A DNA stretch of 64,000 nt from Phoenix dactylifera (taxonomy: Eukaryota > Streptophyta > Magnoliopsida > Arecales > Arecaceae), in assembly GCF_009389715.1 (NCBI RefSeq), contig NC_052404.1:2658738-2722737 (forward strand), written 5' to 3'. The notes below the pieces were generated by a model. That model ran no database searches, was not told where the DNA came from, and saw nothing but the letters and a program-made list of their open reading frames with translations. Each line of letters begins with the position of its first letter. Position 1 is the stretch's first letter. Made by a program: the position numbers and the translations under genes. Below, piece after piece: positions 15,201 to 50,335 of the stretch.

Positions 15201-18200
15201 TCTTTTTCAGTGAGATCGTTTTTTTTTTTTTTATGTTGAGAAAAAGCTAGCAGTAGGCTAGAACATAGTTATGAGGTAAGAAGTTAGCACCTCAGCCTAA
15301 CAGTCTTGAAGGTCAAGAACAGTGAAACTCCAATAAATTGTCAATTCCTGATCAAAACTCAGAAATTTGCAAAGACAGGGACACCTATAAATTCAGTTGC
15401 ACGAGTTATCTGGGATTACTGATCCATTATATTCCACTTTGGAAAATGACAATTAAGGTAGGGTAGGACTTGCTTTCTGTTTTATTACTCTTCCTCATTA
15501 ATATGTTTGAGTGGTAGCCCCATCTGTAAGCCTTCTGTCCTTGAACTTCGAAATGTTTGATAGGCTATGACCCATTTAAATCTAAAAATATATATTAAGC
15601 TTACATTTCTTTTCTCGCAGCATCCAGCTTTCTGCTTTTCATCAATGCTTCCATTATATATTTTTGGTGTTACTGTATGTAAGCCTGCTGGTCCTTTACC
15701 TTGAAATTTCTGGGAGGCTATTCTTATTAATGTACTTCAGAAAATTACAGTCCTTTTATTACTGCATCTGGCTGTCCTAATGTAATTCTGTGGTTTCTTT
15801 AATTGCAGTCTTGCATGTTTAAAAACATTAGTGATGTGTTTTTTATTTAATATCTATTACAACTTTTGCAGGTTAAATTTCATATCATATCACACAAGAA
15901 ACTTGGCAGGTGCTGTGGCAAGTCTGATGTATCCTCTTTGTGTTACCTCAATATGGAACAGCTGATGAAATGCCTCTTGTCTCTTTTCGATATGTATGAT
16001 ATTAATCAAAGATCCAAGTCCATAGGCAAGAATGCAGCTGAATTCTATTCATTTTATGTACTTCTCCATCTGGGTTATAAGATCCCAAAAATGGTCAGTA
16101 TCTGATTTTGCCTTATTTGTGGATACTAACTTGCCCATGATGATAGTGAGCTTGAGTTGATTGATTGACCCCTTGACCTTACATGTTACATTGATACACA
16201 GGGGGATTCGCTTTCTTTTTGGTATAGCCAATTAGCTCTTCCAATTCTCCAGTCAAAGGAAATGTGCTTTGCTAGGAGTTTATTAAGGTAAGTTATTGAA
16301 TCATACAGTGTCGAACCTTCTGTGCAATTCAAAATGTTTGTAGTACTTTCAGAAACTCCATCTTGCCTCTTTTCTTGCCCCTCCCTTTTATGTGTGGGCA
16401 ACTCAATAGACTTCTTTCTTTCTCCTTATACTTCAAATTTCGCTAGTAAAATTTCTTTTTTTTTGTATGTGATTGATTGAACATCTTCATATTATTAGTA
16501 ACAGAATTTACTCTGATGACACCTTTACGATGTCAGGTACTCTCAAGTGGGCAACTATAAGCGTTTGTTTAGTACCATTGCAGCTGAAGCATCTGATCTG
16601 CAGTTGTGTCTTCTAGAACCTTTTCTCAATGAGGTTGTTCCATGCTTGTATTGACTTTATTCATTCAGATTCCTATTAATCCATCTATACTTGCTTCATT
16701 ATCATGTAGCCCTTTGTTTCTGTGTTGCCTTGGTCTAATATGCTTGGCTTTATCATTGGGCGCAGGCACAACATTCATTATAAGGTGTCCTGTTAACAAA
16801 GAAAGCTAACACTGCATTATACAAATTGTTAGAATGTGTAAGCATTTTTTTACCATTACTAGACATAATTTGGAAGACGTACTTAGTTGGTAGCTTTTGA
16901 GATTCATGATTTCTTGGTGTTGAGGATTATGTCGATCTTGCTGGATAAGATGTTTCCTCTCTGACTTTGGATCCTTTTTTGGAAAGTTAAAGAAATCTTA
17001 GATCAATTTTTGCCTTATTGCTTTGATCGATTCTGGTTTTCCCTTTCCTTTTACAATTTCTTACCTTTCCTGTCTTCCATTTCTTAGTCTTCAATGTACA
17101 TAGATACCACTGAACTTCGTACACTTTGAGTAACAATGATGCTTTAGTCAACTAGCTCCATAATTTTTTCCTTCTCTTTTGTTATAAGTGGTTGCTGCAT
17201 GAGTTGTTCTGTACAACTTCTGGTGAAAAGGCTGCTTACCCACCATCCAATGCAGAGGGAAAGGAACAGGAGGAAAAAATGATAGGCTAGCCTAGGCTTT
17301 TGCAAGGCCAACTTTCACCCATCCTGGCTGATTCCTATATGGAGGACCTATTTTTGGCTTGTGCAACATAACTACCATGTGGTATGGTTTGTGTTATGAG
17401 AGTGTAAATTAGAAAAAGCTACCATGCTGATTTAGAAATACCTTCAGATTGGTGATAAATATCAACAGTGAGGATGATAGTGTTATTTTGATGATTAACA
17501 AGCAATTATCTAGAGTATGTTATAAGTTAAATCAATATTTCATTTATAAGTCCATTACTCTCAGTATATTTGTATGAATTGACATAGATATATTTCATTG
17601 TTCATTTGAATGAATCTAACATTGAGATGCAGCAAAGAGTGGATTAAGTCGACCCAAAGATTGAGTGGGTCGACCCCGGCACATCAAGAAGTCATTTGGC
17701 ACACTTCTGCAAAATTGGCACAGATGAACAGTGAGTTGGGTCGACCCAAGGAAAGCATGAGTCGACCCAAACACCAAGATTCTTGAAACAAAACAGAAAA
17801 AATGGCTCTCTGGATTTACTGAGAGGGTCGACCCAAACAGTGGTTGAGTCGACCCAAGCTTGAGTCGACCCAAACCCTGAGAGGGTCGACCCAAAGGCAA
17901 AACAGAAAAAGAAGTCAGGAAATGGTTCTCTGGAATTACTGAGAGAGTCGACCCAAGAAGAAGTTGAGTCGACCCAAGTGAACTTTGAGTCGACCCAAAG
18001 AATGGTTGGGTCGACCCAAGGGAAGGAAGGCTGAATTTCAAGTTTCTGTGTTTTCTGAGAGGGTCGACCCAAGGAATGTTTGAGTCGACCCAAGTGAAAG
18101 TTGGGTCGACCCAAGGACAGGTTGAGCCGACCCAAACACGGGCTGAAGCATAACGGCTAGTTCTGCAGATGTACTTTTTGTCCTTTCCAAGGTCAGTAAC

Positions 18201-21200
18201 GGCTAGTTTTTCAAATCTAACCATTGGGGCTTGTCCAAAGGATGTGGGAAGCTATTTAAAGGGGCACTATTCATCAGATAGAATAACTTTTGAAAGAGAT
18301 ATCAAAGAGTACACAAGAAAACAAAAGTGCCCTAATCTTCTTCATTCAAGTGCTTCATTCAAGAATCAAAGAAAGGAGTTGAGCAGATTCAAAGAGTCAT
18401 CAAGAGCTCCATCCTCCCTTGAAGAGTGAAGCATCCTTGACAAAGAAGAGCAAAGCCACTTCAAAGCGATAAATACTTTCTAACTCTTCTTTGTAGTTAA
18501 TATTGTTTCATTTGCTCATTTAGGAGTTTGAATCTTTCTTTTTGTTTGTTAAACTATTTGTAAAGGTTGGTTGGTGAGCCCGGAAAACCAACGAAGTAGG
18601 TTGATTGGTGAACCCGGAAAACCAATTGTAAAGGTTCGTTGGTGAGCCCGTAAAACCAACAAAGGTTTTTGGTGAACCCGGAAAACCAAATTGTAAAGGT
18701 TCGTTGGTGAGCCCGTAAAACCAACAAAGGTTTTTGGATTGTGAGCCCGGAAAACAATCCAACTGTAATCCGCGAGATTATAGTGAATTCCCAAGGGGTC
18801 GCTTGGGGAGTGGACGTAGGTGCTAAGGAGAGCACCGAACCACTATACTTTGTGTTGTTTGTGTTGTGAATTGCCTTAGCTTACTAACCATCTATTTGAC
18901 TTGAGTAAGATAGTTTAAATTTAAAAGAAACCAATTCACCCCCCCTCTTGGCTTGTCACCTTGGGCAACAAGTGGTATCAGAGCAAGGTGCTCTAATAGT
19001 ACTCATTGATCTCACAATCAAGAGTTAAAGATCATGACAACCCAAGTGGGATGTTCTATGAGTGAGGGGCAATCCACAAATAGACCACCTCTATTTAATG
19101 GCACAAACTACACATATTGGAAAGCTAGAATGAGAATATTCATTCAAGCTTCAGACTATGAACTATGGCAAATCATCACTAGAGGACCTCACACACCCAC
19201 ACTTAACATAGAGGGCACTGTCATACCCAAACTAGAAATGGATTGGAATGAAAGTGATAGAAGATTAGCACAGTTAAATGCAAAAGCTATAAATGTACTT
19301 TACTGCTCATTAGATGTAAATGAGTTTAATAGAATATCTACTTGCACTACTGCCAAAGAAATTTGGGACAGACTTGAGGTCACACATGAAGGGACCAATC
19401 AAGTTAAGGAGTCAAAGATAAACATATTAGTACACAAGTATGAATTGTTTAAAATGGAATTTACTGAGTCCATAACTGAAATGTTTACTCGTTTTACTGA
19501 CATTATAAATGGGCTTAAGAGTTTAGAAAAATCTTACTCTAACTCTGATTTGGTGCGAAAAATTCTCAGGTCTCTACCAAGGAATTGGGAGGCCAAGGTA
19601 ACCGCTATTCAAGAAGCAAAGGACCTCAACACACTACAGTTAGAGGAGCTTCTAGGATCACTCATGACCCATGAGTTGACAATGAGGCAAAATTCAGAAG
19701 ATGAGGTCAAGAGAAGAAAGCCCATTGCTCTAAAGACTACCACCCCTAAACAACTAACTGAATCGGAAGATTCGGATGATGATGAAGAAATCGATGAAGA
19801 AGGGATGACTGTGCTTGGGAGAAGATTCAGAAAATTTATGAGAGGTAAGAATAGGTTCCATAAAAAGAAACCCTTCCTTAAAGGTAACACAAGCAAAGAA
19901 AAGGGTAAGGACAAAGAAAAGGAAAAAGAAACTCCCATGTGCTATGAGTGTAATAAACCCGGGCATTATAAGATAGATTGCCCAGATTTGAAGTGGATGG
20001 CAAGAAAGTTGAAAAAGAAAAATTTCATGGCTGAATGGAGTGAAAGTGAGGAATCAAGCTCAGAGGAGGAAGATCATCAAGAGATGGCCCAAATGTGTCA
20101 TATGGCCAATGACGATGAGGTAGATTCTGAACTTGACTGTGATTTTATTGTTGATGAATTACATGATGCATTCTTAGAACTCATGGAAGAACATAAGAAA
20201 CTAATTAATAGAAATAAAGTTCTAAAAGAAGAAAATCAATCTCTTATCAAAGATAAGTTAAAGCTGTCACATAACTGTGAAACATTAAGTAGAAAACTTG
20301 CAAATGAAACCAAGAATCTAATTGGTGAAAATATCAAGCTAAAAGAAGATGCTGAAGAATATAAATCATTGGTAGATAAATTTACTCTTAGTTCTACCAA
20401 ATTAAATTTGATTCTTGATAGCCAAAAAGCTGTATATGATAAGGCCGGTTTAGGATATAGAACGAATAGGAAACAAAAATTCTTAAAGAACATTTTTGTA
20501 AAAGCTAAAAGTGAAAATATTACTTGCTATTGCTGCAATAAGTTAGGACATAGAGCATATGAATGTAACTTTAGAAAGTCCAGTCAAAACAAGTTAAGTT
20601 ATAATCAAAAGATTAAATTCAAGAAAGTTTGGGTTCCAAAAGGAACATGGAGTACTAACCCTAAAGGACCCAACTTAGTTTGGGTACCTAAAGTTTCTTC
20701 TTGATCTTGATTGCAGGTGTGTCTTGCAGCTGATAAAGTGGAAAAACGATGGTATCTAGATAGCGGCTGTTCAAGACACATGACCGGTGACGAAGATCAA
20801 TTTGTCACCTTGGAATCAAAGAAGGGTGGAGTAGTAACCTATGGAGACAATGGTAAAGGGCATATCATTGGAAAGGATAAAATTTTCATTGCTCTATCTA
20901 TTTTTGTAGAAAATGTCTTATTAGTTAAGGGTTTGAAACATAACCTTCTTAGCATAAGTCAATTTTGTGATAAAGGGTTTAAAGTTACATTTGAAGCATC
21001 TGTATGCATAATCACTAATCCTAAAGATAATAGCATTGTACTTGTAGGACAAAGGCAAAGAAATATTTACTTAGTAGATCTTCATGAGTTAGGCAAGAAA
21101 AATGGTTTATGCTTAATTACTAATGAAGAAAAGAAAAATGAAACTAGTTGGCTTTGGCATCGAAGATTAGGACATGCTAGTATGGAATTAATATCAAAAC

Positions 21201-24200
21201 TAGTTAAGAAGGAATTAATAAAAGATGTGCCAAAACTGATCTTTGAAAAGGACAAAATATGTGGACCATGTTCATTGGGAAAACAAACTAAATCATCTTT
21301 CAAATCGAAGAATGTAGTATCAACAACTAGACCATTTGAACTCATACACATGGACTTATTTGGACCTACTAGAACTACAAGTCTAGGAGGGAAGAAATAT
21401 GGACTAGTTATTGTTGATGATTTCTCAAGGTATACATGGGTTTCATTTTTGGCACATAAGAATGAAGCATTTTCAGAATTTTTGAAACTATATAATAATA
21501 TCATAAATGAAAAGAAACTCACCTTAGTAGCAATTCGAAGTGATCATGGTACGGAATTTGAAAATCAACACTTTGAAGAATTTTGCACTAAAAATGGAAT
21601 ATCACATCAATTTTCAGCACCTAGAACGCCTCAACAAAATGGGGTTGTTGAAAGAAAAAATAGGACATTGGCAGAAATGGCACGCACAATGTTGTGTGAG
21701 TCAAATCTTCCAAAGTACTTTTGGGCTGAAGCTATAAACACTTCTTGCCATATTCTAAATCGAGTTTTAATACGACCTATAACCAAGAAAACTCCTTATG
21801 AACTCTGGAAGAATAAGAAACCAACTGCTAAATATCTTAAAGTGTTTGGATGTAGATGTTTTATCTTAAACAATGGCAAGGAGGATCTAAGTAAATTTGA
21901 TGCCAAGTCAGATGAAGGTATCTTCTTAGGATACTCCACATCTAGCAGGGCATACAGAGTATTCAATAAAAGAACCTTAGTAGTGGAAGAGTCAGTCAAT
22001 ATTATATTTGATGAGTCTGATAGTGAGTCTGCTAGGAAAGAAAATATTGTTGATGATGATACAGGAATTATCGACTTTGAAAAGTTGAATATTGATGACG
22101 TGCCAAATCAAGATAAGGGAGATGATTGCGTGCCACCACAATCCCAAAACTTGCCAAAAGAATGGAGGTATGCACATGGACATCCTAAAGACTTAATCAT
22201 TGGTGATCCATCTCAAGGGGTAAGAACTCGATCATCTCTTAGGAATTTAAATGATTATCTTGCTTTCGTTTCACAATTAGAACCTAAGAATTATGAAGAA
22301 GCTGAAAAAGATAATAACTGGATAAATGCCATGCAAGAAGAATTAAATCAATTCAAAAGAAGTAATGTATGGACATTAACTGAAAGACCAAAGCATAATT
22401 CAGTAATTGGAACAAAATGGATATTTAGAAATAAATTAGATGAAAATGGATTAGTTATAAGAAATAAGGCTAGACTTGTAGCTAAGGGATACAATCAAGA
22501 AGAAGGAATAGATTTTGATGAAACATTTGCTCCAGTAGCTAGATTAGAGGCTATTAGATTACTTCTAGCATTTGCATGTTTTATGGATTTTAAATTATAT
22601 CAAATGGATGTGAAGAGTGCATTCTTAAATGGTTTTATTGAGGAGAAAGTATATGTAGAACAACCTCCAGGTTTTGAGAATCATGAATTTCCAAATCATG
22701 TGTTTAAACTACATAAGGCATTATATGGATTAAAGCAAGCACCTAGGGCTTGGTATGATCGATTAAGCAAATTTCTGCTTAATAATGACTTTAGTAGAGG
22801 AAATGTAGATAAAACTCTATTTCTCAAAAGAAAGGACAAAAATCTATTAGTGGTACAAATATATGTAGATGACATAATCTTTGGTGCCACAAATGATACT
22901 CTTTGCAAAGAATTTGCTGATTTAATGCATGGAGAATTTGAAATGAGTTTGATGGGAGAACTAAGCTTCTTTCTAGGATTACAAATCAAACAAACTAAAG
23001 AAGGCATTTTCATTCATCAAACTAAGTATACAAAGAAAATACTAAAGAAGTTTGGGAATGAAAATCATAAGGGAGTTGGCACTCCAATGAACCCTACTAG
23101 TAAGCTAGACAAAGATGAAAAAGGGAAGAGTATTGATATTAAGCTCAATAGAGGAATAATTGGATCCTTGCTCTACCTTACTGCTAGTAGACCCGACATC
23201 GTATTTAGTGTAGGAATATGTGCTAGATACCAATCCGATCCTAAGGAGTCACATTTAAGTGTTGTTAAGAGAATCCTTAGATATTTAAGAGGAACTACCA
23301 ATATAGGTTTATGGTACTCAAGAGACTCATGTCTAGATTTGCTTGCATATTCAGATGCTGATTTTGCCGGATGCAAATTAGATAGGAAGAGCACAAGTGG
23401 CACATGTCAATTCTTAGGAAACAACTTAGTATCATGGTTCAGCAAAAAGCAGAATTCAGTGGCACTGTCCACAGCTGAAGCTGAATACATAGCTGCTGGT
23501 AGTTGTTGTGCTCAAGTATTATGGCTTAAGCAACAACTAGAGGACTATGGAGTTAAACTAGATAATATTCCTATTAAGTGTGATAATACTAGTGCCATCA
23601 ATCTTACTAAAAATCCAGTTCAGCACTCTAAAGCCAAACACATAGAAATAAGGTACCATTTTATTAGGGATCATGTGCAAAATGGAAATATATATATTGA
23701 GCATATATGCACTGAAAAACAATTAGCCGACATATTTACGAAACCATTGAGTGAAGATAGATTCTGCATGCTAAGGAGGGAATTAGGCATATGTGATCCT
23801 TTTTATTGAAGAAATATAAAAGGGAGCTAGTAGTCTCATGATACATTCCTCTAATTTCTAAAATCCCATGAAACATGAGTCAAACTTGTTATCTATAGAT
23901 TCCTTACTCATGTATCATTGTCCCAGAAAGAAGTTATAAGGATTGGAAGCAAAGAAAATTTTTAGAAGCAAAAAGGAAGAGAAAAAGAAAAATTCTGCAC
24001 TTGGGTCGACCCAACCCAGAATAGGGTCGACCCAACGTTGAGTCGACCCAAGAAAAATCTTGAGTCGACCCAACGTCGGGACCCCACTGTTAAAAGGGGA
24101 CCCGAGAGCATATCTAGGGCACTGTTTACCCTTTGTCCTCTTCCGAAAATCCTTTTTTCCACTCTCAAATCTTCTCCAATCATCTCCAAACAGTAGATTT

Positions 24201-27200
24201 CCTTGAGATCCTAGAGAAATGGGACCCAAAAGAGCCGTAGCCAAGAGATCCGGAAGAGTCACACGGATTCAACGGGAGGAAAGGCAACCTACGGAGCCAT
24301 CTCCCGTGTCTCCACGACGTGAGGCACGTGCGGAGGCCCCTCCTCCTCCTTCCCCCTCAGTGATACTTGCAAGATTTGCGGGAAGGCCGGTTACAACGGG
24401 GAGAAGGATCCATTCCGAGTTCTTTGATCAAGAAGGGTTTCGGTTGAGGGAATGGATCCAAAGGCAAGGTTGGGAGTATCTTTGCTCCCTAGATGTGGTA
24501 ATCTACCCCGGATTGGTTCAGGAGTTCTATGCCTTCCTCAAAACTGGTATGGGAGGGCTTGTTTCGGAAGTTCGAGGGGTTCGAGTTTGAGTTTCCGAGG
24601 AGAGCTTGAGTGAGCTACTTCATCTACCCTGCATAGGAGCCACTCCGGAAAAGCCAGAAAACAAAATGAGAGCTCTAAAGTTGATCATGGAAAATGAGAA
24701 CTTCGACTTTTCCACGAAGGTAATAGCTAGTTCTCTTTCCGCTGAAATGAGATTACTGCTCAGTATAATAAATAGGATTTTATTTCCAAAGACCGGGAGA
24801 TTCGATCTCATCACAGAGCGAGATCTAGCAGTGATGGAGTGTATGATTCAGGGGATTCCCCTAAATCTTCCGGCCATGATACTGAGACAGATGAGGAAGG
24901 TGATGTGCAGCAACAGGGTATCACTACCTTATGGTATGATACTCACCTTGATTTTTCGACAGCACGGTTTAGCTCTCGAGGAGGAGGCATTCAAGAGTCT
25001 GCATCATACTGCCACATACACTGCACGGACACTTATACGCATGGGATATGAGAAAGTGAACGGACAGTGGATTCACACTGGAGCAGGCATTCAGGGTGAG
25101 GCACCAGAGGGAGATGCACCAGAGGATGAGGATGAGGAGCATATGGATCATCCTCCTGCACCTTCAGAGGCTGGACCATCATCATCCGTTCCTCCGAGAG
25201 ATACGGATGAGTTCTGGAGCAGGATGACTGAGCTCATGTCAGCTCAGGCGAGGACGCCCGGTTGGATGTCATGTCTGCTGAGATCAGTGATCTGAGGCAG
25301 CAGATAGGAGCACTCCGGAGAGAGAGAGACTCATGGACCATCTGTGCCACAGGCTGCTGAGTCAGAGATTTCGGCACAGAGTCATCCAGCTCGTCGTGCT
25401 CTACGCCAGACACAGTCTCACCAGGCACGACCTCCCCTCGCCACATACACTAGGAGGATGAGGACTAGATCCCAGCCGTTAGAGTCTCCCTAGGCTGATC
25501 TTAGCATTTATGTTTAGAGCCTAGGCCAGATATCTAGTTCTCATGTGTATTTTGCTTTTATCATGTATCTTTAAACTTTGATTGAGGAACATTGTATTTG
25601 TTTTCATTTTGGGGATGACTGTATTAAAATGTTCCTATTTTGATCAATGAAGTTTGAAGTTTGCTATTTATTGCATCTTTCCCATGTATCTTTTTGATGA
25701 TAACAAAAAGGGGGAGAAGTAAAGTAAGAGTATTTATTTTAGGAGAAGTAAAGATCTTAGGGGAGAGAAGTAAAGATTTTGTAGATTAGATAAAGTAACA
25801 AAGGGGAGAAGTAAAGATATCTTTAGAGTAAGTAAAGAAAGATTGATAAGAGTAAAAGTAAAGAAAGAGGAATAGTAGAGAAAGGAGAAGTAAAGAAAGT
25901 TAAAGAAAGGAGAAGTAAAGATATCTTTAGAGTAAGTAAAGAAAGATTGATAAGAGTAAAAGTAAAGAAAGAGGAATAGTAGAGAAAGGAGAAGTAAAGA
26001 AAGTTAAAGAAAGGAGAAGTAAAGAAAGAAAGAGAAATAACTTGTAAAACAAATTGAAAATCATATAAGAAAGCATATACATCTAAGGGGGAGCAATTTG
26101 CAACAATGAAAATGATCAAGTCAAAAATTTATATCAAATTTCAGAATTTGGCACGCACCTCTCGCACCCCGATACATAACCTGAAACTCATATTTTATCT
26201 CAAATTTTTGAAGTTTCATCGCTAATGAATTATAAATGAAAGGGGGAGCAATTCAAAAAGTCAAATTGGCAACATTTAAATGATATAGGGGGAGATTTCA
26301 CTTTTATATATGAAAAGCTGAAATTCAGCAAGTTAAGCCCTTTCAAAAACTGATTTCAAAGACAAATAACAATAGGTTCATACTCTTTATTTTGTAATCA
26401 TCAAAAAGGGGGAGATTGAGGATGATAGTGTTATTTTGATGATTAACGAGCAATTATCTAGAGTATGTTATAAGTTAAATCAATACTTCATTTATAAGTC
26501 CATTACTCTCAGTATATTTGTATGAATTGACATAGATATATTTCATTGTTCATTTGAATGAATCTAACATTGAGATGCAGCAAAGAGTGGATTTAGTCGA
26601 CCCAAAGATTGAGTGGGTCGACCCCGGCACATCAAGAAGTCATTTGGCACACTTCTGCAAAATTGGCACAGATGAACAGTGAGTTGGGTCGACCCAAGGA
26701 AAGCATGAGTCGACCCAAACACCAAGATTCTTGAAACAAAACAGAAAAATGGCTCTCTGGATTTACTGAGAGGGTCGACCCAAATAGTGGTTGAGTCGAC
26801 CCAAGCTTGAGTCGACCCAAACCCTGAGAGGGTCGACCCAAAGGCAAAACAGAAAAAGAAGTCAGAAAATGGTTCTCTGGAATTACTGAGAGAGTCGACC
26901 CAAGAAGAAGTTGAGTCGACCCAAGTGAACTTTGAGTCGACCCAAAGAATGGTTGGGTCGACCCAAGGGAAGGAAGGCTGAATTTCAAGTTTCTGTGTTT
27001 TCTGAGAGGGTCGACCCAAGGAATGTTTGAGTCGACCCAAGTGAAAGTTGGGTCGACCCAAGGACAGGTTGAGCCGACCCAAACACGGGCTGAAGCATAA
27101 CGGCTAGTTCTGCAGATGTACTTTTTGTCCTTCCCAAGGTCAGTAACGGCTAGTTTTTCAAATCTAACTATTGGGGCTTGTCCAAAGGATGTGGGAAGCT

Positions 27201-30200
27201 ATTTAAAGGGGCACTATTCATCAGATAGAATAACTTTTGAAAGAGATATCAAAGAGTACACAAGAAAACAAAAGTGCCCTAATCTTCTTCATTCAAGTGC
27301 TTCATTCAAGAATCAAAGAAAGGGGTTGAGCAGATTCAAAGAGTCATCAAGAGCTCCATCCTCCCTTGAAGAGTGAAGCATCCTTGACAAAGAAGAGCAA
27401 AGCCACTTCAAAGCGATAAATACTTTCTAACTCTTCTTTGTAGTTAATATTGTTTCATTTGCTCATTTAGGAGTTTGAATCTTTCTTTTTGTTTGTCAAA
27501 CTATTTGTAAAGGTTGGTTGGTGAGCCCGGAAAACCAACGAAGTAGGTTGATTGGTGAACCCGGAAAACCAATTGTAAAGGTTCGTTGGTAAGCCCGTAA
27601 AACCAACAAAGGTTTTTGGTGAACCCGGAAAACCAAATTGTAAAGGTTCGTTGGTGAGCCCGTAAAACCAACAAAGGTTTTTGGATTGTGAGCCCGTAAA
27701 ACAATCCAACTGTAATCCGCGAGATTATAGTGAATTCCCAAGGGGTCGCTTGGGGAGTGGACGTAGGTGCTAAGGAGAGCACCGAACCACTATACTTTGT
27801 GTTGTTTGTGTTGTGAATTGCCTTAGCTTACTAACCATCTATTTGACTTGAATAAGATAGTTTAAATTTAAAAAAGACCAATTCACCCCCCCCCCCTCTT
27901 GGCTTGTCACCTTGGGCAACAAACAGATTAGTTCATTTCCTCAGTGGCAGGTACTAGTAATTATGGTCTCTTTCCAAAGTGGATCATCGAGTTGTAAAAC
28001 TTATTGTAGCAAAAGGTACCAACTTTATATTTGGATTGGACTATGATGAGACTTTATATCTAGTTCCTGGAACCACAGACATATACGTGTTGCTATATAC
28101 CATTTTTAAGAAGAAGTCTTTATGGAAAAAACCACGGGTTATTGCATTATTGGAAACTATCCTGTGCATGAAATCAATCACTCCAGTAATTGGTGAAAGT
28201 TTCAATCCTGATCATCCTTTGATTCTTTCTATCAGGCTTGCATAATTTTATATGTTCTTATCTCTCAGGCAATGCCGCTATTTTGTTGTTATTGTTTTAT
28301 AATCTATGATATGGTGGTGTGAAGCAAAATTTTCATGTAAATGTTATGATGCATCACTCCTTCAATTTAAAGATTTGTTAGCTTTTGACTTGAGCATTGT
28401 TGAATTTGGTGCTGCTTTCTTGAATAACTAAATCTAGTTATTTATCAATTTACTGGGAGAATCTGGACTGTCACATAGGAGGCCTGATAGGACTCAATAT
28501 AACAAGGGCAACTAGCTCTTGCCCAACGAGAAAAATAAGTTCGATCTTGATTGACATCTTGGAATATCTTCCATCCTCACATCCTAGTGTCAGTGTGCCA
28601 CATATTTTGTCAATGAGGTATATGCCAGCTTATGGTCACTTACACATCAAAGGCATTATTAAAGACAGCTTGATTTCTTCTATATAATATATAGTCAAGG
28701 ACATGATAACCAACTTGGACTGACTCAGATATTCATCGTTTGGTTACTGGCTGCCATATTATCTTCTGAAAGTGTCCTGTTAGGTGTAGCGGCAAAAAGC
28801 AAAATCTTGTTAAAATATTTATCTGGAACAATACCTTTCCACACCAGTTATTAGGCATCTTTTTCTCTGAGCTTCGGCCAAGGTAACTTGAAGTCATTTT
28901 TTGTCCAGTATTTTGTGCTACAACAATGCCTACTTGATTGAACTATCATTTCATTTCAAAAGAAGTGGAGAATGGTGACGCAAGTCATAAATACAATTGT
29001 GCTACATGGTTACTTGCAATAAGAGTTCATAATGGTGCACTGATCTCTATACAAAAAAGTCTCTCATGCAAGCCAACAAAAAGTTGAGGGGTGTGTCCTA
29101 GGTAAGGTTGAGCTTGTCCATGCACTCCAAGATGATGGCATATGGGCTAATTGTGAAAACTAATACAGGGTTGTAGGATGAATTTCAAGATAGAAGGCTA
29201 TCTTCTTTCTTCACTTTGGGTTATTTGGGGGAATTTCATCTGGTAAAAAACAGGATCATGTGTCTCATGTGTACTTATGGAAGGGAAAACAAAGTTTTTC
29301 CTATTTATATATTTTCCTTTTAATTTAATGTTCTTACTTTCTTTATCTAATGCCTCCTCTATTTTCCCCTTCCCTCTACTTCCTTTTTCTTGATGGGTGT
29401 TGCTTGAAAGGTTTGAGAAAGTTAGAATTTATCAGAAATTTGACCCTTAATATGACAAGGAAGGATTGATGATGCCGTCTCTAGAGAGTTGGAATGAGCC
29501 CGGTTGGTTAAAATGTGGTTATTATTGCCTATTAGTGACCCTTCCAAAAGGAGCATTTAGGGTCTATTTGGCATCACCTTTATTTCTAGTTTTCTATTTC
29601 TAAAAATAAAATTGTAGAAATTGAGACAAAAATATCATCAATACTGATGTTTTTTTCTATTTTTCAAAAGTCATTTTCATTATTTCTAGAAAAAATTAAA
29701 AGTAAGAAATTCTTATTTTCAATATTTTCAAAAATAAGAAACTTTCATTTTTTGCCACCACCACTGTCGTTGTCGTTGCCAACAATGCAAACATCGCCTC
29801 TGTTGCTGCTACCACCACACCTACCACTATCGCCGCTTCACTACACCACCACTGCTATCATTGCCACCTCCTCTATATTGTTAGCACCCTCCACTATTGC
29901 TGTTGCTGCCACATCACTCTTTGCCACCTCCACCAAGTAGCCGGCATTCTTGTCACCGCCATCACCGCTACTACGTCCCCCCACCCCACCCACCACCACT
30001 ACCACCATCGCCACCTCCGCCTACCACCACCACCCTTGACACCGGCACCATCAGCGCCTCCACTATTTATGTTGCTAGTACCATCATCTACACTACCATT
30101 GCGATGTTTATATTTTTAAAAATAATTGACTATGCTAAGCACATTTATATTTTAAAATTTAGAAAAAGCAGAATAGAATTTCTATTTTTCTGTTTCTGAA

Positions 30201-50227: not shown

Positions 50228-50247
50228 GTCTCTTCGGAGACATCCGA

Positions 50248-50279
<32 letters not shown>

Positions 50280-50329
50280 GGCCCCTGCGCAAGGATGACA
50301 CGCATAAATCGAGAAATGGTCCAAATTTT
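50228..50329 (+). ncRNA. U6: U6 spliceosomal snRNA
   Basis: U6 pairs with U4, then with U2 and the 5' splice site in the catalytic core. The RNA is complete: the 5' hairpin GTCTC-TTCG-GAGAC, then GATAAAATTGGAACGATACAG with the ACAGAGA box, the AGC triad in GATTAGCATGG, the internal stem-loop region CCCCTGCGCAAGGATGACAC, and the 3' end GAGAAATGGTCCAAATTTTT. Relative to the usual plant U6 the hairpin has one C-to-T and one G-to-A change that compensate each other, and the CGCACAAAT motif reads CGCATAAAT. A ten-T terminator follows at once and USE/TATA elements precede it, so it may be expressed, though U6 pseudogenes are common. Confidence 0.88.
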
Positions 50330-50335
50330 TTTTTT
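50326..50335 (+). terminator. Pol III T-run terminator of U6
   Basis: Ten consecutive T follow the U6 coding part, ample for Pol III termination. Confidence 0.85.

Follow-up and report, generated by a model that had tools for sequence, protein, structure and literature searches.

Long terminal repeat (LTR) retrotransposons of the Sirevirus group carry repeated short dyad-symmetric units, the RM palindromes, which cluster upstream of the TATA box and show a CGG-CCG core in 12 of 13 elements (PMC2829016). In maize, palindrome clusters of Sireviruses have been associated with an excess of small interfering RNAs (Bousios 2016, as cited in PMC10760457). Here we describe a different repeated unit, located in a Sirevirus-type copia retrotransposon of Phoenix dactylifera that lies within a stretch of 64,000 nt (NC_052404.1, positions 2,658,738 to 2,722,737, forward strand; hereafter the window, by which all coordinates are given). 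It consists of six tandem hairpins in each LTR, which are probably small H-type pseudoknots of the RNA leader. Whether this array belongs to the known Sirevirus palindromes had been left open in the preliminary description of the locus; as far as the account in PMC2829016 goes, it is not one of the RM boxes, because it lies downstream of a TATA-like site and lacks the CGG-CCG core, and whereas RM boxes are palindromes with short intervening bases, the array combines variable stems with a constant loop and a pseudoknot helix. With the maize palindromes, described as motif clusters in the cis-regulatory region and compared here by description only, it shares a strong predicted secondary structure within Sirevirus LTRs (PMC10760457).

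Consecutive small pseudoknots in a plant positive-strand RNA are known from the upstream pseudoknot domain of tobacco mosaic virus (TMV), but this domain comprises three knots in a viral 3' untranslated region (UTR), whereas the array has mostly two to eight units and is placed in the 5' leader of an LTR element (PMC4683447). A domain of the TMV type would stand in the 3' UTR beside a tRNA-like structure; the array stands in a 5' leader, and no tRNA gene was found in the window. Retroviral packaging leaders resemble the locus in joining a structured leader upstream of gag to a zinc-knuckle Gag, and retroviral constitutive transport elements resemble the array as structured cis-acting RNAs with a pseudoknot in an LTR element; we know of no repeated near-identical pseudoknots in packaging leaders, either retroviral or of BARE, and the likeness to the transport elements is one of structure rather than of sequence or position. 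The first likeness extends to the packaging and dimerisation signals of BARE (PMC3735527) and the second to the MusD transport element (MTE; PMC12786077).

Tandem units and a predicted interleaved helix

The six perfect hairpins of the 5' LTR (18570-18592, 18604-18626, 18638-18660, 18668-18690, 18703-18725 and 18734-18762) enclose an 11-nt loop, GARCCCGKAAA, and a second set is found at 27517-27709 in the 3' LTR, as the preliminary description had reported. Its four stem types (GTTGGT/ACCAAC, ATTGGT/ACCAAT, TTTGGT/ACCAAA and GGATTGT/ACAATCC) proved to be fully paired; the stem length of 6-7 bp that it gave holds in general, the last stem being one of 9 bp (TTGGATTGT/ACAATCCAA). It was also right that the two LTRs differ inside the hairpins only in loops (18644 G/A and 18750 G/T), with all six stems intact in the 3' copy. 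The loop motif, allowing at most one mismatch, occurs 12 times in the window (six per LTR) against 2.18 expected, a number that none of 100 shuffles reached, and the 270 nt upstream of hairpin C, the last of three hairpins that follow the array, hold six perfect hairpins (stem of at least 6, loop of 8-16), whereas 50 shuffled versions held 1.04 on average and never more than 3. Because units 3 and 5 lie in a duplicated block of sequence (18633-18672 is identical to 18698-18737), the six units do not represent six independent events. The folding check that had been proposed gave a mixed outcome: the advantage of the whole array over its shuffles is only moderate (z -2.34; 4 of 200 as good), and units 3, 5 and 6 folded singly beat theirs (3, 3 and 2 of 200 as good).

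The sequence GG(G)TT, found 5' of each stem, pairs with the 5' half (GARCC) of what had been called the conserved loop, forming a helix (S1) that is interleaved with the hairpin stem (S2) in the order S1a, S2a, S1b, S2b. All six window units show this order in both LTRs, GGTT facing either AGCC or AACC. At least some of the loop's constancy follows from RCC pairing with the GG(G)TT flank, so that a pseudoknot fits better than a plain hairpin with a recognition loop. Other interleaved pairings occur in related LTRs, namely GGGTT with AGCCC, CAAGTT with AGCTTG and, in family D (a label given by hairpin C sequence), an upstream CGAGTT with AACTCG in the loop, reported in place of the last hairpin (L089, L105, L108; numbers with L denote sampled stretches). 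The first loop (L1) has 0-3 nt across the 6-7 bp of S2 and the third (L3) has 6 nt across the 4 bp of S1, lengths that are plausible by known pseudoknot geometry, unit 4 being tight (L1 of 0 nt with a 6-bp S2, or of 1 nt with a 5-bp S2). The units are best read as tandem H-type pseudoknots, a predicted fold in which we have good confidence.

The array is not confined to this locus. In the genome (773,078,369 bases in 2,391 contigs) the loop motif GARCCCGKAAA is matched 18,837 times and its reversed pattern 1,272 times. Two samples were taken from contig C1: 40 stretches around the first 100 listed places of the loop motif, in which stems vary between families and pairing is mostly kept, and 40 further stretches picked blind to the loop, by hairpin C alone. 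Among the latter, 27 hold three to eight non-overlapping units, 11 hold two, L108 holds one and L096 none, and each of the 38 with at least two units has at least two in which S1 reaches at least four pairs. Unit number lies between two and eight in 75 of the 77 LTR stretches counted, and perfect hairpins in the 270 nt ahead of hairpin C number 5.05 per LTR in a set of 39, compared with 0.78 after shuffling and 0.97 in downstream DNA (31 of the 39 having enough sequence for this control). Many stretches are near copies of one another, and distinct sequences were counted where possible; loops with two mismatches were listed only when paired in the family comparison of the first sample, and later counts were made without that rule.

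Support for S1 comes from several comparisons. A first, loose test on 195 distinct hairpins gave a mean of 4.18 pairs, against 2.40 with shuffled flanks, 2.09 with reversed flanks and 1.84 with the 3' flank. A narrowed rule, framed after this test, defined units by S2 alone (closing GT/AC, at least 5 Watson-Crick pairs, loop of 10-15) and sought S1 with L1 of at most 3 and the second loop (L2) of at most 2; in 77 LTRs, both window LTRs among them, it gave 422 units with overlapping registers, 207 of them distinct, and S1 of at least four pairs in 174 of these 207 (84%), a share that drops to 21% when flanks are shuffled and to 32% when loops are. Applied unchanged to nine held-out LTRs (L120-L128), it found such an S1 in 44 of 48 units (24% and 34% after shuffling). 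When overlaps were removed by taking the longest stem first, 363 of 394 units in the 77 LTRs retained S1, and two LTRs had no unit with it. The joint change of flank and loop in homologous slots is the stronger evidence: the last slot has AAG/CTT, GAG/CTC, GGTT/AGCC or GGGTT/AGCCC (the slot rule matched in 74 of 76 LTRs, with L096 and L100 outside the last-slot pattern) and the second-last has GAG/CTC or GGG/CCC. Furthermore, 132 of the 146 distinct units whose loop bases 2-5 read ARCC, ATCC or ACCC have a purine at base 3, the kind of base needed opposite a U.

The claim that stems change in a compensated manner is supported by paired differences across families. S2 positions 3-6 carry 3, 4, 4 and 4 Watson-Crick types in 128 distinct units (two of those at position 4 seen once), counts in which pairing is built into the unit rule. 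A further view was given by an alignment (A1; 65 rows, with S1, S2 and hairpins A and C named) of the window and 64 distinct stretches from L009-L108 that match the hairpin C pattern, running from the last unit to hairpin C: 94.7% of cells are paired against 90.1% in shuffled alignments (0 of 500 as high), and 8 pairs have changed on both sides against 4.7 shuffled (0 of 500) and 2-5 in slid versions of the structure, in which pairing falls to 30-53%. At S1 pair 7-26, AU is found in 31 rows and GC in 14 (11 in register and three out of register). Among the 42 rows in register, 32 have U-G and 10 have U-A at pair 10-23; in the window family and in family E, GG(G)TT lies further 5', which shifts it out of the S1 columns, and the rows of these families are mostly counted as unpaired there. 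Pair 44-62 of hairpin A is G-U in 64 of 65 rows. Conserved wobbles have a meaning only in RNA, so that an RNA of this strand is the best explanation for them, and RNAalifold, which is blind to pseudoknots, recovers S2 and hairpins A, B and C unaided. That the array is a structured RNA under selection is, on this evidence, very probable.

A probable AUG-free leader, its hairpins and its host element

The array lies about 300 nt downstream of the TATA-like site, and the final ATG ahead of that of gag is at 18242. Between 18284, a leader start assumed about 30 nt past the TATA-like site, and the gag ATG at 19034 there are 0 ATG in 750 nt, against a mean of 9.76, and never fewer than 3, in 2000 shuffles. 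In a set of 62 LTRs, the density of ATG falls from 11.6 per kb at -600 to 0.4-2.8 in the zone that begins near -560, in the TATA region, and runs up to hairpin C; it rises to 16.9 at hairpin C itself and is 12.1 beyond. CAT gives a clear contrast, with 12-31 per kb from -560 to -320. This depletion supports the earlier proposal that the array follows the likely transcription start; the AUG-free leader makes it very probable that the array is transcribed, and it most likely sits inside RNA that ribosomes scan. The R region has been estimated at only 10 bp for the Sire group, by comparison with Tnt1 (PMC3601003).

Beyond the array, the structured leader extends through hairpins A, B and C. Hairpin C covaries clearly on both sides (pair 109-123 is UA in 42 rows and AU in 21), and its internal loop, GUA/GAA, presumably resembles the bulged-G (sarcin-ricin-like) motif. 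Together with CACTATA it has 16,668 genome matches (0 for the reversed control), and the pattern CCGAACCNCGT finds it in 921 places (1 for the reversed control). It is also present, as GUGG-AYGUA-GG...CC-GAA-CCAC, in other copia-type LTRs (L060, L064, L065, L068, L109-L119, L130), where, in those read, it stands between TATA and primer site with stems that differ in a paired manner, including GAGG/CCTC; hairpin C may thus be a wider leader element of plant copia RNAs. The array is narrower in distribution. That it might be general to LTRs with this primer site was rejected, given that 18 of 20 ATTGGTATCAGAGC stretches (L049-L068) have no unit and two have one each, in one case with S1; a single loop-like word occurs in 2 of the 20, and hairpin C in four (L060, L064, L065, L068). 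The other stretches with hairpin C (L109-L119) have no unit in 8 of 11 cases and one in 3 of 11, none with an S1 of at least four pairs.

Two further observations concern these leaders. In L011, L014, L074, L075 and other GATGTAGG stretches, hairpin C contains GGATGTAGG, in which AUG directly precedes UAG, a possible start-stop element at the end of the AUG-poor zone. In several families (L070-L108) an additional hairpin (CTTGATTCAA/TTGAATCAAG or CTTGTTCCA/TGGAACAAG, with paired differences) stands ahead of the array, about 180-320 nt upstream of hairpin C.

A search of Rfam at the gathering score found nothing in the leader, which gave sub-threshold matches only; the one match in the window is a U6 small nuclear RNA elsewhere (full length, plus strand, 113 bits, 50228-50330). 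MIR845, considered as a known RNA family, was discarded as weak, below threshold and overlying the primer-binding site. The exact core unit pattern was not found in a collection of viral contigs. Of the hairpin C matches there, L129 looks coding and was taken as chance, and L130 was read as a plant LTR with hairpin C and without the array; repeated CCTTCGTGGG-like words lie upstream of its hairpin C.

The host element has LTRs that differ by 14 substitutions and two small indels in pairwise alignment. Its primer junction, CAACA-AGTGG-TATCAGAGC at 18966-18984, agrees with that of Sireviruses, CA/ATTGG (or AGTGG) followed by TATCAGAGC (PMC2829016). The polypurine tract AGGGGGAG lies 10 bp upstream of the 3' LTR with an AT/TG attachment, and four further copies (25709, 26086, 26241 and 26287) bring the number to five; a C-rich integrase signal, CACCCCCCCTCTTGG, is found near the LTR end at 18937. 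Gag matches zf-CCHC with 26.6 bits (cut-off 20.8), and the gag and reverse transcriptase genes are of copia type (PF14223, PF07727). Judged by its sequence, the element fits the Sirevirus features listed in PMC2829016. It also has RM-like palindromes of its own, TTGGGTCGACCCAA, at 17738-18151 in the LTR, upstream of the TATA-like site and without the CGG-CCG core, and related GGGTCGACCCAA repeats, again without this core, occur in the linker (24003-24051), placed as Sirevirus RM boxes are. The linker further contains an open reading frame (ORF) of 229 aa (24606-25295) that matches PF20167, a putative plant transposon protein, and purine-rich tandem repeats (25787-26048) among the polypurine tracts.

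Table 1. Features of the retrotransposon and its leader, in window coordinates.
Feature	Position	Strand	Composition or basis
5' LTR (TG...CA)	17469..18970	+	LTR pairwise alignment and ends
3' LTR	26417..27921	+	pairwise alignment with 5' LTR
Target-site duplication AACAG	17464-17468 and 27922-27926		flanks of element
TATA-like TATTTAAA	18253..18260	+	candidate promoter
ATG-free stretch read as leader, 750 nt	18284..19033	+	
Pseudoknot unit 1 (predicted)	18565..18592	+	S1a 18565-18568 GGTT; S2a 18570-18575; S1b 18577-18580 AGCC; L3 CGGAAA; S2b 18587-18592
Pseudoknot unit 2 (predicted)	18599..18626	+	S1a 18599-18602 GGTT; S2a 18604-18609; S1b 18611-18614 AACC; S2b 18621-18626
Pseudoknot unit 3 (predicted)	18633..18660	+	S1a 18633-18636 GGTT; S2a 18638-18643; S1b 18645-18648 AGCC; S2b 18655-18660
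Pseudoknot unit 4 (predicted)	18664..18690	+	S1a 18664-18667 GGTT; S2a 18668-18673; S1b 18675-18678 AACC; S2b 18685-18690
Pseudoknot unit 5 (predicted; repeat of unit 3)	18698..18725	+	S1a 18698-18701 GGTT; S2a 18703-18708; S1b 18710-18713 AGCC; S2b 18720-18725
Pseudoknot unit 6 (predicted; last slot)	18729..18762	+	S1a 18729-18732 GGTT; S2a 18736-18742 GGATTGT; S1b 18744-18747 AGCC; S2b 18754-18760; stem lengthens to 9 bp, 18734-18762
Hairpin A, ACTGTAATC/GATTATAGT	18762..18784	+	fold; mostly one-sided G-U changes
Hairpin B, CCCAAG/CTTGGG type	18789..18808	+	fold; weak covariation, mostly G-U changes
Hairpin C, GTGG-ACGTA-GGTGC...GCACC-GAA-CCAC	18809..18844	+	fold; conserved internal loop ACGUA/GAA
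AGTGG and primer-binding site TATCAGAGC	18971..18984	+	Sirevirus type, by comparison with PMC2829016
gag ORF, 556 aa	19034..20704	+	Retrotran_gag_2 and zinc knuckle match
pol ORF, 1032 aa	20711..23809	+	integrase and RVT_2; start set mechanically
Terminal polypurine tract AGGGGGAG, then AT/TG	26407..26414	+	
3' LTR six-unit array	27512..27709	+	S1 and S2 intact in all six

Weight of the evidence and possible roles

A number of observations weigh against the pseudoknot reading. The nested minimum-energy fold of the window array pairs neighbouring units with one another, and units 1, 2 and 4 folded singly are no better than shuffles (20, 59 and 83 of 200 as good). The idea of a pseudoknot took shape only once the data had been viewed, and the held-out loci come from families that were already represented. 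When flanks are permuted among units, the mean of 4.18 S1 pairs falls only to 3.57; in one of the two between-type flank swaps S1 does not fall, CC-type flanks on CTYG loops doing as well as the CTYG units' own flanks (0.81 and 0.80 with at least four pairs), a weak contrast that we attribute to the shared GGTT/GARCC and to G-U pairs. Unit counts vary with the register chosen: taking the shorter loop first leaves S1 in 339 of 382 units and 12 of 77 LTRs with no S1 unit, 11 of them of family D, in which S1 itself is then taken as the stem. Family E (L013, L016) alternates standard units with hairpins whose loop, TTATCTGAAA, has no S1 partner, and GGTT has been lost from the last slot of two window-family LTRs (AGATTTTTG). 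Among the 40 loop-blind stretches, eleven have two units only, and L096, which belongs to another family, lacks the array although hairpin C is present.

The case from paired change has its own weak points. Further pair types in A1 number 18 against 17.1 shuffled, which is no excess (170 of 500 reach 18), and pair 8-25, one of the eight changed on both sides, rests on out-of-register rows, from which both of its GC cells come. The asymmetry of G-U over A-C in S2 was tried as proof of RNA and dropped as too weak (single-mismatch types in 28 and 19 distinct units). The array-bearing relatives come from one genome and, besides the window, one contig, and independent compensatory events are few, roughly 4-6 for S1 and about 8 for S2. 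CAT, too, is scarce within the array (0-6.9 per kb from -280 to 0), and composition may contribute to the lack of ATG in that part. With these points counted, a leader RNA domain of tandem pseudoknots still seems probable to us as the structural core, and we infer both knot formation by the RNA in the cell and a use of the repeated units as identical sites for binding.

This putative cis-acting RNA domain of the Sirevirus-type copia element's 5' leader would begin with a tandem row of small H-type pseudoknots, six in this element and between two and eight in most of the LTRs sampled, each ordered as S1a GG(G)TT, short L1, S2a, G, S1b RCC(C), A-rich L3 and S2b, and would continue with hairpins A, B and C. 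Since a single module is repeated while its stems drift, it seems that the fold is read, rather than the stem sequence, and that having several copies is of advantage. The most likely use would be as a multivalent platform for a repeated binder, the first choice being the element's own Gag, through its zinc knuckle, in genome selection and packaging. We favour Gag because the encoded protein has a zinc-knuckle match and because packaging leaders of LTR elements occupy this place, and propose the packaging role tentatively. Dimerisation and strand transfer, which the preliminary description named beside packaging and translation, are conjectural roles.

A role of the same pseudoknot array in translation, where it would tune scanning, shunting or internal ribosome entry on the long AUG-free leader, is somewhat unlikely. 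Ribosomes probably traverse the array, since the window's leader has no AUG between the TATA region and gag, and this speaks for such a role, as does the importance of the three consecutive pseudoknots in the TMV 3' UTR for translation and replication (PMC4683447). The TMV array is, however, 3' and not 5', and inhibition would be the expected effect of stable knots in a leader that is scanned. The array could also be a nuclear-export element with repeated receptor sites, by analogy with the constitutive transport elements of simple retroviruses, which act in export. MusD MTE uses pseudoknot and kissing-loop motifs for export, and the structured leader of cauliflower mosaic virus (CaMV) recruits export factors (PMC12786077), but the array has no sequence link to either, the argument being one of position, and we regard export as improbable.

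The view that the units are simple hairpins, the loop being the recognised part and the GGTT flank fortuitous, was demoted once the flank-loop pairing had been found, and now has a low probability. It would account for paired change in S2 alone, for an A-rich 3' half of the loop that is constant without pairing and for the weak flank permutation test, but it leaves unexplained the joint differences of flank and loop in homologous slots, the S1 of the held-out units and the purine at loop base 3. Blocking of 5'-3' exonucleases, by which the pseudoknot array might shield packaged or uncapped RNA, is very unlikely: the H-type topology, tandem redundancy and 5' position would suit it, but known plant exonuclease-resistant RNAs differ in size and conserved residues. 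Finally, DNA-level palindromes that mimic RNA hairpins, either as binding sites or as arms corrected by template switching, have a precedent in the RM boxes upstream of TATA (PMC2829016) but were rejected as extremely improbable, because in the array the arms vary while the asymmetric loop stays constant, the opposite of what a dyad binding site shows, because wobble pairs are conserved on one strand and because the window's array lies downstream of its TATA-like site. Nor was arm correction seen in close LTR pairs (10 of 12 compared; small numbers, and not every pair proven to come from a single element), in which the 6 changes in stems are all one-sided and 12 changes fall in loops.

Meaning for Sirevirus biology

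No earlier description of the array was found in the literature searched; the Genome Research 2016 paper on maize Sirevirus palindromes may mention it. It is rather likely that Sirevirus-type elements carry, in their genomic RNA leader, a tandem H-type pseudoknot array of variable copy number, and that it is linked to hairpin C, which other copia-type LTRs also have, so that plant copia RNAs would have an unrecognised conserved leader element in common. To our knowledge, such a repeated, evolving RNA platform has not been described for any LTR element, and little is known of Sirevirus RNA selection, export and translation. Tandem pseudoknots as such are already known from TMV (PMC4683447); as a retroelement leader they would be new.

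Sireviruses occupy much of some plant genomes, 21% in the case of maize B73 (as cited in PMC10760457), and a defined, repeated and covarying RNA module present in thousands of copies offers a handle on how their RNA is handled. Each helix yields point predictions, and the natural unit number of two to eight provides a ready-made dose series. For LTR annotation the array offers a structural anchor between TATA and the primer-binding site, and it points to an unstudied working part of these abundant plant elements.

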